In this document: piece by piece, positions 3,367 through 9,669 of the stretch
How positions within the stretch are numbered: the stretch's first letter is position 1
Layout: the number at the start of each line of letters is the position of its first letter
Assembly (NCBI RefSeq): GCF_006335115.1
Contig: NZ_VDMJ01000024.1
Location: forward strand, 182,852 to 246,851
Source of the DNA: Streptomyces sp. NP160
GTDB taxonomy: Bacteria; Actinomycetota; Actinomycetes; Actinomycetales; Quadrisphaeraceae
Length of the DNA: 64,000 nt
Direction of reading: 5' to 3'
Notes under the pieces: model-generated
Databases searched by the model: none
What the model was told of the DNA's origin: nothing
What the model saw: the letters and a program-made list of their open reading frames with translations, nothing else
Made by a program: the position numbers and the translations under genes

Positions 3367-3843
3367 TCACCCTGGGGGAGCGGGAGGCGGTGCGTCGAGC
3401 GGTTTCCGGCCCTCGAGGGAGGCCGTGCAGGTGACGAGGTCCTCGCGGAGGCGCTGAGCCCCGACCTCACCGAGCGAGGCGAGCATCGCGGCCTCGACGT
3501 TCGCCACGTCAAGGCTCGCGCGGGCGAGCAGGTCCGCGCCCGCGGGCGTGAGCCGGGTGGGCAGGGCCCGTCCTGAAGGGGCCTGCGCCGGGCGGTCGAG
3601 CAGGCCGCGCTGCTCCAGCCCCTGCAGCGTGGTGTGCGCTGACTGGCGTGTGACGAAGGTGGCGCGGGCCAGGTCCGCCGCCGACATCCCGGGGCGGTGC
3701 TGCAGCTGCTCCAGGCACGCGTACTGGGGGACCGAGAGGTCGAGAGGGCGGAGCGCGTCGTCCATCGCCGAGCGGAGGGCGGCGGCGGCGCGCTTGAGCG
3801 CCAGCCCGACGGAGCTGTCCAGGTCGACCCGGCCTTGCGTCAT
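3367..3843 (-). CDS. MarR-family transcriptional regulator
   Basis: A 158-residue winged-helix regulator. Helix-turn-helix region: MSAADLARATFVTRQSAHTT, followed by the wing around RPAQAPSGRALPTRLT. The ATG at 3843 is preferred over an upstream GTG because it falls at the edge of a palindrome, as expected for an autoregulated gene. It is divergent from a VOC-fold gene (26 bases from one to the first repeat of the other) and leads a two-gene operon with the APH-fold kinase. The natural layout is that MarR represses both directions until a ligand binds. The ligand is unknown. Confidence 0.9.
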   Translation of the reverse strand: MTQGRVDLDSSVGLALKRAAAALRSAMDDALRPLDLSVPQYACLEQLQHRPGMSAADLARATFVTRQSAHTTLQGLEQRGLLDRPAQAPSGRALPTRLTPAGADLLARASLDVANVEAAMLASLGEVGAQRLREDLVTCTASLEGRKPLDAPPPAPPG

Positions 3844-3889
3844 GTCAGGAGTCTGACATACAGTCGTCGGTGTCAGTCCAGTTGACACC
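3842..3889. promoter_or_regulatory. Two palindromic MarR operator candidates
   Basis: Palindrome 1 (3842-3859) has 7-base arms ATGTCAG/CTGACAT around GAGT and overlaps the marR start codon. Palindrome 2 (3869-3889) has 7-base arms GGTGTCA/TGACACC around seven bases. The two share the core TGTCA/TGACA. They flank the likely -10 of the VOC gene, so binding would block both promoters. Confidence 0.65.
3859..3864 (+). promoter_or_regulatory. -10 candidate (TACAGT) for the VOC gene
   Basis: TACAGT fits the actinobacterial TAnnnT -10 and sits between the two MarR palindromes. Transcription would start near 3871, giving a ~32-base leader that contains the AAAGGAG ribosome binding site at 3890-3896. 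Confidence 0.5.
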
Positions 3890-3902
3890 AAAGGAGCATC
3901 CC

Positions 3903-4283
3903 GTGGCTGCTGTCACCGGTCCGGACTTCATCGCCCTGCAGGTCCGTGACGTCGCTGCGTCGGCGCACTTCTACGAGACCCGCCTCGGGCTGCGCCGGGC
4001 GCCGGGACCGCCCGGCGCCGTCGTCTTCGCCACCTCACCGGTCGCCTTCGCCGTCCGAGAGCCGCTCCCCGGCGTCGACCTCGACGCCGTGAGCCCGCGG
4101 CCCGGCGCCGGCGTGGCGCTGTGGCTCGCCGCCGACGACGCCCAGGTCCTCCACGACGACCTCACCGCCGCCGGCATCCCGGTGCTGCAGCCGCCGTTCG
4201 ACGGCCCCTTCGGCCGGACCTTCACGCTGGCCGACCCGGACGGCTACGCCATCACGGTCCACGGACCTGCCGCCGCGAGGTGA
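3903..4283 (+). CDS. VOC (glyoxalase/bleomycin-resistance) fold protein
   Basis: A 126-residue protein with the paired beta-alpha-beta-beta-beta modules of the vicinal oxygen chelate fold: FIALQVRDVAASAHFYETRL at the start and FGRTFTLADPDGYAITVHG at the end. The GTG at 3903 follows AAAGGAG with a six-base gap, so it is preferred over an in-frame GTG at 3870 that would place the start inside the operator. Known members are glyoxalases, dioxygenases and drug-binding proteins; the divergent MarR regulator suggests a response to a small toxic molecule. The precise substrate is unknown. Confidence 0.85.
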   Translation: MAAVTGPDFIALQVRDVAASAHFYETRLGLRRAPGPPGAVVFATSPVAFAVREPLPGVDLDAVSPRPGAGVALWLAADDAQVLHDDLTAAGIPVLQPPFDGPFGRTFTLADPDGYAITVHGPAAAR

Positions 4284-4593: not shown

Positions 4594-5628
4594 TCACAGG
4601 AAGGTGAGCGCCGACCCGTGCGGCGCCGCCAGGGCGAGCGGCGCGTCGTCGAGTGAGACGAGGAACGGTGAGCCGCCGTCGTGCTCGTGGGGCGGCTGGG
4701 GTGCGAGGTCGGGGAGGACGGCCCAGCCCTCCACCCCCAGCCGGTGGGCACCAGCCTCCTCGATCGCCTGCCGCACAGCGCTGCGCCCCTCCGCCCCCAG
4801 GTAGACCAGCGCCGCGCTGTGCGTCACGACGACGGCTCCTCGCCCGCGCCCGGCGACCTCGTCCAGGTGCCGGCGCGCCCGCGCGAGCAGCGGCGCGAGG
4901 TCGGTGGTCATGTCACCGGCCAGCACGGGCGGCCGGAGCCGGGCCGCGACGTCCAGGGCGAGCCTCAGCCGCTCCGCGCGCTCGGCGTGCTCCGGCCAGA
5001 CGAGGCACTCCAGCCAGCGGCGGGTGTCGGCGTCGGCCGGGTCCAGCGGGGACAGGTCGAGCCCCGCCCGCCAGGCGATGGCCGGGACGGCAGCCGGGAG
5101 CCGCTGCGCCGCCCCCAGCCCGTCGACCGCGCACGGCAGCTCGACGTCGCTGACCGCCGGCCCGACGAGGTGCTCACCGCCTCCCGGCAGCGCGTACCGG
5201 TACCGCCACGCGTCGTAGAGGAGGCAGAGGCCGGCGCTCGCGCCCACCTCGACCACGGCGAGCGGACCGTCGGTGCGAGCTGCCAGCTCGGCGAGGCCGG
5301 GCAGGAGCACCGCGCACCGGGCGGCCTCGTTGGTCTGCGTCGACCGCTGCAGCACCGTGGCGCGCACCTCGTCGCCGTGGTCGAGCAGCCACGCCAGGGC
5401 GGCGGCTGGGTCCTGGACGGGCGCGCCGTGCCAGCGCAGGGCACCGAACAGCAGGTTCGGCTGCGCCTTGCCCGCAGGGAGCGCGGCGAGCAGGTCGAGG
5501 GTCGCCTCGTCAGCGGCGACCGCCAGCGCCAGGCGCTCGTAGACGGCGGAGGACCCAGCGGCCTCGGCCCGGGCGAAGCCGAGGTACCGCGTCGACACCG
5601 CGTGCCTGGAGGACCCGTTCTCCGCCAC
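4594..5628 (-). CDS. DUF2332 family protein
   Basis: A 344-residue soluble protein recognisable as DUF2332 by the N-terminal run AGSSAVYERLALAVAADE, the QPNLLFGALRWH segment, the QTNEAARCAVLLPGL block and the later LVEVGASAGL-like glycine motif (VVEVGASAGLCLLYDAWRY region). The glycine motif resembles a methyltransferase-type nucleotide loop, but the function of the family is not known to me. Start GTG at 5628. It reads toward the VOC gene and is followed upstream by a SnoaL-like gene on the same strand, 119 bases away, so it may be co-transcribed. Confidence 0.8.
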   Translation of the reverse strand: MAENGSSRHAVSTRYLGFARAEAAGSSAVYERLALAVAADEATLDLLAALPAGKAQPNLLFGALRWHGAPVQDPAAALAWLLDHGDEVRATVLQRSTQTNEAARCAVLLPGLAELAARTDGPLAVVEVGASAGLCLLYDAWRYRYALPGGGEHLVGPAVSDVELPCAVDGLGAAQRLPAAVPAIAWRAGLDLSPLDPADADTRRWLECLVWPEHAERAERLRLALDVAARLRPPVLAGDMTTDLAPLLARARRHLDEVAGRGRGAVVVTHSAALVYLGAEGRSAVRQAIEEAGAHRLGVEGWAVLPDLAPQPPHEHDGGSPFLVSLDDAPLALAAPHGSALTFL

Positions 5629-5747: not shown

Positions 5748-6167
5748 TCAGGTCTGAGCGAGGCCCTCGCCCACGAGCGCGTCGCGGACCACGGGGTACA
5801 GGTCTCCCCAGCACCCGATGATCTTGCCGTCGGCCACCCGGTAGAAGACCAGCTCCTGCGTGCGCACGGTCCGACCCGTCGGGGTGATGCCCTCGAAGAC
5901 ACCGGTGTGCGTGCCCTGGCCGACCAGGCGCACGGCGACGGTGTCGCCGTCGACCAGCACCTGCTGGGGCTCCCACCGGTAGTCGGGGAAGCCCGTGACG
6001 ACCGCGCGCACGCCCTCGACGTAGGCCGCCAGGCCGTCGACAGGGCCGGAGCCGCTGACCGACCCGTCCACGAACTCGCCGAGGTCGTCGACCCGGTGCT
6101 CGTTGCAGCAGGCGAGGTAGCGCTCGTAGAGGTCGAGCAGCTCGCTCCGGGACATCGCCACGCGCAC
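5748..6167 (-). CDS. SnoaL-like (ester cyclase/NTF2-fold) protein
   Basis: A 139-residue single-domain protein with the SnoaL pattern: an N-terminal helix (SRSELLDLYERYLACCNEHR), DGLAAYVEGVRAVVTGFPDY, a strand with VAVRLVGQGTHTGVFEGITP and a final EFFR-like LVFYRVADGKIIGCWGD. The family includes polyketide cyclases and many uncharacterised NTF2-like proteins. An ATG at 6155 is an equally good start; neither has a strong ribosome binding site. No polyketide genes are nearby, so the name ester cyclase is structural only. Confidence 0.8.
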   Translation of the reverse strand: MRVAMSRSELLDLYERYLACCNEHRVDDLGEFVDGSVSGSGPVDGLAAYVEGVRAVVTGFPDYRWEPQQVLVDGDTVAVRLVGQGTHTGVFEGITPTGRTVRTQELVFYRVADGKIIGCWGDLYPVVRDALVGEGLAQT

Positions 6168-6338
6168 GACGCTGCCACCCCGCCTCGAAGGTCACCACGC
6201 GGCGGGGCGGTCACGGGACGACGGGGCCTGTCGCTCCGCCTCGGACTGCGCCACGGTGGACCTGTTCGCGATCCGCGAAAGGGTGTCACCGACGACGGCT
6301 GCATCCGCACCGGCGTCGACAGGGCGCGCGTCCCGCTC

Positions 6339-6979
6339 GTGTACGAGCCGGTCGTCGAGGCGCTGGTCTCCGCCTTCGAGCGCCAGCGGTCCTCCTCGCC
6401 GTCGTCCCTCATCCTGTAGGGATCGGTGGCGACCGGACAGGCGCATCCGCCGCGCTCCGACGTCGACGTCGTGCTCCTGGGCCTTTCGCAGGCCACCGCC
6501 ACCGCTGTGGCCGCGCGGCTGTCCCATCGCTTCGCCGGCCTGTGCCGTGAGGTCGCCGCAGGCGCAGCGCGCCTCGAAGACCTCGAGGGCGACGACGACG
6601 AGGTGCACGGCAACCGCGTCTTCCTCCGGCACTACTGCGTTCTGCTCGCCGGCGACGACGTCACCGCAGGCTGGCCGCCGTTCCCCGCGGGCGCCCGGGC
6701 GGCGCGAGGCTCCAACGGCGACATCACCCTGCGGCTTCGCGGCTGGCGCCAGGACGCCGGGTCGCTCGACCAGGTCGACGCCGGGCTCGACCCGGCGCCC
6801 ACCGCTGGGGAGAGGTCGACCCGGCGGCCGCCGAGGACCTGGAGGGCCTGCTCGCCTGGGTCGACGGCGGCGTGACAGCCTCGGTGGGCGACGTCCACAG
6901 GGTCCTCGGACCCGATGGTCCGGTGCAGCGGATCGTCGACGCGCTCAGCGACCTGGTCGGTCTGCGGGCGGTCCGCTGA
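6339..6979 (+). pseudogene. Decayed nucleotidyltransferase-domain gene
   Basis: One frame reads VYEPVVEALVSAFERQ, then LIL, an amber TAG at 6417-6419, then GSVATGQAHPPRSDVDVVLL. That is the nucleotidyltransferase signature GS-x(n)-SDxD, normally preceded by an aromatic residue, so TAG has replaced a Tyr codon (TAC/TAT). The frame continues to about 6810, where coding character moves to another frame (EVDPAAAEDLEGLLAWVDGG, ending at TGA 6977-6979), as expected if one base is missing. Both lesions make a functional product unlikely. The gene overlaps the 3' end of the convergent GH16-like gene by 35 bases. The true start may lie upstream of the GTG used here; 6168-6338 holds nothing else I recognise. 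Confidence 0.75.
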
Positions 6980-7709
6980 GCGCGACGCGGTGCACGAGCG
7001 CCGACTTCGGGTAGTCGCTGACGGGCCCCGGCGGATCGGTCTCGAAGAGGTCGACCATGAGCTGGAGCGGGTACGGCAGGCGCTGGGGCGAGCTGTAGAC
7101 CAGCTGGCCCTCGCAGGAGACGCCCACGCCGTCGTCGTCCCAGCGGGCCGACCACGTGTGCCGCTCGCCGCGCCCCACGGGGACCACCACCTCGGTCATG
7201 TCCGTGACGAGGCGCGGGTCGTGGTGGGCCTTGATGCCGACGCGCGCCGTGCTGGACCGCTCGCCGACGGCCGAGGCGTCGAGCTCGACGACGCACACCT
7301 CACCGCTGTCGCGCTCGTCCAGGTGCTCCGTGCCGACGAGCCAGACTGCGAGCATGCAGCCGGGGTCGGTGCTGGCCGTCACGGTGACGTCGACCTGGCC
7401 GCTGGTGGGTGCCCACAGCACGCGCTCGGGCACCGCGGTCCTCACCACCAAGCCGTCCGGCCGGTGGCGGTGCGTGCCGCGCCGCGACCCCAGGGGACCG
7501 GAGGAGGTCGCGGTCTGCAGGTTGGACACCCGCAGCGGCGCGTCCTCGGGGCGCCAGTCCAGCTGGTCGGCGTCGATCCGGAGCCGCAGTCCGTCAGCGG
7601 TCAGCTCGTACCGGGCGCGGGAGCGCTCCGGCGTCGTCCACTGCGGCAGGTAGTGGTCGACCCACAGGTCGGGGTCCAGCCGCTCACCGGTGAAGTCGTC
7701 CTCGACCAC
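6945..7709 (-). CDS. Glycoside hydrolase family 16-like protein
   Basis: A 254-residue protein with a concanavalin-like profile: DDFTGERLDPDLWVDHYLPQ at the N-terminus, then repeated beta-strands (GQVDVTVTASTDPGCMLAVW, HTWSARWDDDGVGVSCEGQL). It resembles actinobacterial proteins annotated as GH16, but I cannot find the ExDxxE catalytic motif; the nearest stretch is GEVCVVELDASAVGE. It may therefore bind rather than cleave carbohydrate. There is no signal peptide, so it is probably cytoplasmic. GTG start at 7709 with a leaderless -10 directly upstream. Confidence 0.7.
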   Translation of the reverse strand: MVEDDFTGERLDPDLWVDHYLPQWTTPERSRARYELTADGLRLRIDADQLDWRPEDAPLRVSNLQTATSSGPLGSRRGTHRHRPDGLVVRTAVPERVLWAPTSGQVDVTVTASTDPGCMLAVWLVGTEHLDERDSGEVCVVELDASAVGERSSTARVGIKAHHDPRLVTDMTEVVVPVGRGERHTWSARWDDDGVGVSCEGQLVYSSPQRLPYPLQLMVDLFETDPPGPVSDYPKSALVHRVALSGPPADRPGR

Positions 7710-7715
7710 CGGCGC

Positions 7716-7721
7716 AACCTA
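7716..7721 (-). promoter_or_regulatory. Leaderless -10 (TAGGTT) of the GH16-like gene
   Basis: On the minus strand TAGGTT is followed by six bases and then the GTG at 7709, so the start codon would be the transcript 5' end. Confidence 0.65.
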
Positions 7722-8294
7722 CCCGGCGGCCGCCGTCCTGGTCACCGCGTGGAGAGCGGCGAAGCTCGGTGCTCCCGGAGGGCGCTGACCGGTCGGCGCC
7801 ACGCTCGCCTGCGACCGCGTGCGGCGCTCGCGCCAGGCGGCCCGCGTCAGGGGTTCGCCGCTGTGGGCCAGCGTGAACCACACCACGTGGCGCGCGCTGG
7901 GAGGTGCGCTGCCGCGCGCGTCGTCGTCGACCGTCTCGAGCTGGCTGCCCCAGCCGTCGGAGAGCAGCCCGAACAGCGGCAGACCGCGCCCCCCGAGGTG
8001 GCGGGTCGCGGGCATGTGGCTGCTCTGGCAGCGCGACGGCGGCAGCGGGGTCGTCCCGCCGTCGACCACCTCGATGCCGAGCTGCTGGTCGTCGTCGGCG
8101 ATGCGCACCAGGACGGGGGCCTCGGGCGCGTGGCGCACCGCGTTGGTCACGGCCTCGGTGGCCAGCAGGAGGGCCGCGTGGAGCACCTGGGGGTTCCACT
8201 GCGCACCGACCGCGGACAGGTGGGCGCGCACGGTGCGCGCGGCGCGGTCGTCGTGGGGGAGGGCGAGGAACGACCTCACGCACTCGGATCCCAT
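7719..8294 (-). CDS. Anti-sigma-type histidine-kinase-like ATPase
   Basis: A 191-residue GHKL ATPase of the RsbW/SpoIIAB type. N box EAVTNAVRHA, G1-like EVVDGGTTPL and G2-like LGGRGLPLFGLLSDGWG are visible, and there is no dimerisation/phosphoacceptor domain. Such proteins bind sigma factors or phosphorylate STAS antagonists. A STAS protein at 9917 and a SpoIIE-type phosphatase at the window start are candidate partners, but no sigma factor gene is nearby. The ATG at 8294 is chosen; in-frame extension to 8417 would add residues without family resemblance. Confidence 0.8.
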   Translation of the reverse strand: MGSECVRSFLALPHDDRAARTVRAHLSAVGAQWNPQVLHAALLLATEAVTNAVRHAPEAPVLVRIADDDQQLGIEVVDGGTTPLPPSRCQSSHMPATRHLGGRGLPLFGLLSDGWGSQLETVDDDARGSAPPSARHVVWFTLAHSGEPLTRAAWRERRTRSQASVAPTGQRPPGAPSFAALHAVTRTAAAG

Positions 8295-8465
8295 CGCGAC
8301 CGCCCTCGTTGCCGCAGCTGCCTCCCGACGAGGATGCTCGCTGTCCGTGACCGCGACCAGTCGAAACCGCTCGACGCGAGTGCTTCGTCTGTAAGGGCAC
8401 GGAGGGTGACACCTCACTCACCGTCACCCAGGCGGGGCGCGCCACGGCGGCGGGCTGGACGTCCA

Positions 8466-9070: not shown

Positions 9071-9669
9071 GTGACCGAGGTGAGCAGCACCGGTACCGCC
9101 CGGGCGTACGCGGCGAGCCTCCTCGTCGGAGACCTCGTGCAGCTGCGCGCCCTCGCCGAACAGGACCTGGCGCAGCTCGACGCCTGGTGGCAGGACGTCG
9201 CGCACGCTCCGCTGCAGCGCGGCGCCGTGGTCCCCCGGCCCCTCGGGACGGCGGTCGAGCAGTTCCGCAGCTGGAGCGCCAACGACGGCAGCACCCCCGA
9301 CGTCGGCTTCAGCGTGGTCGAGCGCACCACCGGGCAGCTCGCGGGCCACCTGACGCTGTGGGGAGCGGGCTGGGGGGACCGCTCCGCCGAGCTGGGCGTC
9401 CTGCTCGGGCCCGAGCACCAGGGCCGCGGCCTCGGTCCGGACGCCCTGCGGGTGCTGCTCCGGTACGCGTTCGACGAGCTGGGCCTGCACCGCGTGTCGC
9501 TCGAGGTGTGGGCCTTCAACGACCGCGCGCTGGCCGCCTACCGCCGCGCCGGGTTCACCGAGGAGGGCCGCTGCGCGAGGTCGCCTTCCACGCCGGCACC
9601 TGGCACGACCACGTGCTCATGGCCGTCCTGGAGCACGAGTGGCGAGCCCTGGGGGCGGACGGCCCCTGA
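9071..9669 (+). pseudogene. GNAT acetyltransferase gene with a frameshift
   Basis: From GTG 9071 the product follows the RimJ/RimL-type GNAT fold: VQLRALAEQDLAQLDAWW, then LGVLLGPEHQGRGLGPDALR (acetyl-CoA loop, QGRGLG) and LHRVSLEVWAFNDRALAAYR. After GFTEEGR (about 9570) the frame loses family sense, while the next frame gives LREVAFHAGTWHDHVLMAVL and stops at 9669, exactly how this family ends. One C missing from the GGCCGCTGCGC stretch explains it. Either the gene is freshly inactivated or the base was lost in sequencing. The fold and the site of the shift are clear; which explanation holds is not. Confidence 0.85.

Follow-up and report, generated by a model that had tools for sequence, protein, structure and literature searches.

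Organisation of the locus

The window, a 64,000-nucleotide stretch of DNA from contig C104, belongs to a member of the genus Quadrisphaera whose draft genome (4.77 Mb in 186 contigs) is 98.25% complete. On its forward strand it carries a nucleotidyltransferase gene remnant (6264–6979), set among frames at 1575–2456, 3367–3891 and 3870–4283, genes for a DUF2332 protein (4594–5628) and a SnoaL-like protein (5748–6167), a conserved reverse-strand gene with no Pfam match at E ≤ 0.001 (6945–7709; 86% identity in two congeners) and a gene for a HATPase protein (7719–8417). Seven neighbouring frames are 74–89% identical to those of the congener G001, each in one frame and with their order kept; the frame at 1575–2456 is matched over only 206 of its 293 residues, and the locus ends there. 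The gene order is the same in G001 and partly the same in G002 and G004, pointing to an old chromosomal locus and not a recent insertion. The 3′ end of the gene at 6945–7709 overlaps the end of the remnant by 35 bases.

A forward-strand GNAT acetyltransferase gene (9074–9660; Acetyltransf_3, E 1.1e-21) is one base short near 9574 when compared with all three congeners examined, and its last 25–30 codons lie in another frame after the missing base. This shift is plausibly either further decay or a sequencing error.

A nucleotidyltransferase gene in three segments

Homology with the relatives starts at 6264, upstream of position 6339, where an initial annotation made from the DNA alone had placed the beginning of the pseudogene, and an alignment with congeners divides the remnant into three parts. 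The N-terminal segment (6264–6416, 51 codons) is 62–67% identical to three congeners and runs into an in-frame amber codon (TAG, 6417–6419). The nucleotidyltransferase core segment that follows (6420–6764, GSVATG...SDVDV) has an intact frame and 69–72% identity to the three congeneric orthologues. The C-terminal segment (6797–6979; 54–61% identity) is in a shifted frame and covers positions 200–257 of a profile built from six relatives. Read in the forward frame 6246+3n, the sequence runs ...SSPSSLIL, TAG, GSVATGQAHPPRSDVDVVLLGL..., without a shift across the stop, just as first described, and then stays open to 6875. The C-terminal piece, GAHRWGEVDPAAAEDLEGLLAW...VGLRAVR, ends at a TGA (6977–6979) in a frame different from that of the core, so the change of coding frame initially claimed for this part is also real.

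Searched against the organism's own genome, the six-relative profile recovers both pieces side by side and in the correct order, with E values of 1.3e-71 for the piece containing one TAG and 1.4e-11 for the other, a pairing far above chance. The catalytic motif GSVATGQAHPPRSDVDV is present in the remnant and agrees with the GS...D-x-D motif of the Pfam family NTP_transf_2 (PF01909).

Lesions in the gene

The amber codon lies directly 5′ of the GS motif. In a profile alignment of 19 relatives, from which all motif residue counts were taken, the G and both D residues of the GS...D-x-D motif are kept throughout and the S in 18 (L030 has P), while Tyr, which the amber codon replaces here, precedes GS in 16; the other three are L033 (Asp), L037 (Thr) and L041 (Asn). 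This upholds the view of a nucleotidyltransferase pseudogene in which an amber codon has taken the place of an aromatic residue, as does the uninterrupted copy in three of the five other congeners. The L033 sequence (G432:C360:3928-4680) combines its Asp with several odd changes at conserved places, and may itself be decaying or come from an error-prone assembly.

A second lesion lies between two conserved Trp codons (6744–6806). This interval is 62 nt long here, versus 153 nt in G001 and G002 and 156 nt in G004. The net loss of 91 nt (94 nt relative to G004) is not divisible by three and therefore shifts the frame. The missing block, LGRRxARKTLLAxAGLVSVHDSTWTTDR, comprises around 30 codons and is conserved in the congeners; its motifs were found in none of the six frames of the window. 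In a model of an intact relative (pLDDT 68.7) the lost block includes the longest helix, 171–194. An independent frame-shifting defect had been described near 6810; the defect stands, and its site and kind are revised to the net 91-nt loss in the 6744–6806 interval. The idea of a single-base slip near 6810 was rejected, since in the congeners an entire conserved block occupies this place.

The third lesion, which the initial annotation overlooked, concerns the start codon. A GTG is aligned at 6264–6266 in five of six full-length relatives, and the window has GTT, which is not a start codon. Loss of the start is no more than probable, because the start codon of the relatives was assigned by conservation only and the sixth relative (L015) is without a GTG at this position.

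Relatives and distribution

Searching 99 related genomes with the segment 3′ of the TAG yielded three strong matches beside the window, all from Quadrisphaera and with 68–71% identity, and one weak match in G015 (E 5e-4). With the six-relative profile, four of six Quadrisphaera genomes gave a match (the window's own, G001, G002 and G004), and G003 and G005 gave none at E ≤ 0.001. From end to end, no interruption occurs in the copies of G001, G002 and G004, and so the comparison with close relatives that had been proposed as a check does reveal intact copies. The Quadrisphaera orthologues (L009, L010 and L013, the last being the Q. granulorum DSM 44889 copy, also represented by the same protein from G002) share the gene neighbourhood, fully in G001 and partially in G002 and G004. 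Unlike the remnant, they are open from GTG to stop, have Tyr before GS and contain the KTLLAAAGLVSVHD(S/A)TWTTDR block.

Beyond Quadrisphaera, scanning named genomes gave three relatives with 50–51% identity, one each from an Ilumatobacter MAG, a Rhizobacter MAG and Ornithinimicrobium sediminis. Of 396 sampled genomes from the phylum, 13 (counting the window's own) had matches at E ≤ 1e-20, which, taken with the four of six genomes in the genus, indicates a patchily distributed family. A profile search of the organism's own genome detected no second copy at E ≤ 1, and an intact copy elsewhere in that genome was rejected on this ground. DNA-level matches elsewhere in the genome span 34–117 bases at 70–88% identity; these are not copies and were taken for chance similarity of GC-rich DNA. 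Among the listed matches in the Quadrisphaera genome literature, no title is on this gene.

Family and fold of the intact relatives

The remnant, read through the stop as X, scores 20.8 bits against NTP_transf_2 (E 5e-4), marginally under the cut-off of 21 bits; the segment 3′ of the TAG alone scores 14.1 bits and the orthologue L009 22.6 bits. All six relatives match this family at E ≤ 1 (best 2.1e-6), and no other Pfam family is matched. The NCBIfam MntA model also aligns to all six members (best E 0.00043), with 20 bits for L009 and 16.8 for the remnant against a cut-off of 60, and the ANT models each align to one member of the six, with best E values of 0.029–0.19 (0.029 for ANT_9). The PADLOC candidates PDC-M05A and PDC-S09 gave weak matches, confined to the nucleotidyltransferase part. 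Assignment as an MntA type VII antitoxin, ANT(3'')/ANT(9) or Hailong HalB was rejected, as the curated scores were not reached, and the three libraries searched contained no matching curated subfamily model for the intact family.

The intact Q. granulorum relative was modelled from four sequences with moderate confidence. Foldseek returned no match to this model at E ≤ 0.001 (best E 0.092), AadA and ANT(4') standing at the top of the weak ones. The top rows of VIA-align were AAD(9) (6sxj; Z 8.6, rmsd 8.2, 198 aligned) and AadA (5luh_A; Z 8.0, rmsd 8.5, 205 aligned), and a Z of around 8 at an rmsd above 8 is middling by the tool's own scale. The intact relative may share a two-domain layout with AadA and AAD(9), from which it differs by its 10–18% identity and the large rmsd. 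At the domain level, VIA-align pairs the N-terminal domain with the MNT antitoxin 8xeo_B (Z 5.7, rmsd 3.1, 89 aligned) and the C-terminal part with HEPN chains, among them 7bxo_D (Z 7.2, rmsd 3.4, 110 aligned). The family has its nucleotidyltransferase motif in common with MntA and other minimal nucleotidyltransferases; an intact member is one fused protein, in contrast to an MntA-type nucleotidyltransferase with a separate HEPN partner.

On the basis of this model, the intact protein most likely works as a two-domain nucleotidyltransferase of AadA/AAD(9) layout, and the intact relatives probably use an NTP to nucleotidylate an acceptor. A more speculative idea, to which we give a low probability, is that they form a little-described, patchy family of nucleotidyltransferases fused to a HEPN-like helical domain with a C-terminal signature of its own (ARKTLLAxAGLVS, DSTWTTDR), whose loss here, together with its absence in two of the five congeners, might reflect a dispensable, condition-specific role, for example in drug modification or defence. 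The intact family might merit an assay.

Inactivation of the gene

With uninterrupted orthologues in close relatives and disabling lesions here, the remnant is almost certainly a true pseudogene, derived from a single-copy chromosomal two-domain nucleotidyltransferase gene at a conserved Quadrisphaera locus and inactivated in this species. The ancestral protein would have had about 265 residues, with an N-terminal Pol-beta-type nucleotidyltransferase domain and a C-terminal helical domain. The amber codon stands just before the catalytic GS motif, the net loss of 91–94 nt removes a conserved block and shifts the frame, and a non-start codon occupies the place where relatives probably start, so that the locus presumably yields no working enzyme. 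After the amber codon, the longest in-frame product would have to begin again at GTG 6426, which lies within the GS motif, and it would leave the proper frame short of the C-terminal domain. The case for true decay had initially been argued from two independent defects; that argument holds, and the probable start lesion strengthens it. This is ordinary gene decay of an ordinary bacterial enzyme gene. The remnant matters little beyond annotation, in which an automatic pipeline could place two or three short hypothetical genes here.

An intact gene might seem broken through assembly or sequencing errors. The draft genome has 186 contigs, the one-base shift in the nearby GNAT gene might be such an error, and the amber and start-codon changes are single-base lesions that could arise during assembly. 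A net 91-nt loss is not an error of this type, however, the flanking genes are intact, and three lesions of different kinds (a loss of 91 nt, an amber substitution and a lost start) fall within one gene, making this explanation very improbable. Slighter still is the chance that the core segment has taken on a new use as a shorter gene, such as the 149-aa frame running from GTG 6426 to 6875. That frame is indeed open, but equally long open frames occur on both strands throughout the GC-rich window, and the product would be without the G-S of the catalytic motif and would have at least 20 residues at its end out of the family frame.

We attach the least probability, close to none, to the proposal of a gene still in use, its amber codon being read through by suppression or recoding. 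The clean frame on both sides of the TAG and an unchanged dN/dS would suit such a reading, but suppression at the TAG leaves the deletion, with its frame shift and removal of a conserved block, and the loss of the start codon. Recoding is also without support from the tRNA complement, as none of the 44 tRNA genes, all read by ARAGORN, has a CUA anticodon; a missing tRNA is still conceivable in a genome that is 98.25% complete.

Age of the decay

For the pseudogene, the ratio dN/dS against the three congeners was 0.39–0.44, and among the uninterrupted congeners it was 0.38–0.40, giving no signal of relaxed selection in this set of four sequences. The unchanged ratio suggests that most of the divergence predates inactivation and accumulated under selection. 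Of 57 columns that are invariant in six relatives, the remnant differs at 5, each time drastically (Y to stop, D to G, F to S, F to L and W to R). In the corresponding leave-one-out test, L009 and L013 each had 1 changed column of 58, L010 and L016 each 4 of 61, and L014 14 of 71. With three non-Quadrisphaera copies as the reference, the remnant was changed at 13 of 73 columns, L009 at 10 of 73, L010 at 11 of 72 and L013 at 9 of 73. The test does not cleanly separate the remnant from the uninterrupted copies, and the relaxation signal is weak, which fits a recent inactivation. Judged from these sequence comparisons, the gene was probably inactivated recently on the scale of the genus. The lesions could be dated by sampling strains, and the locus offers a clean example of decay, since it is uninterrupted in congeners.
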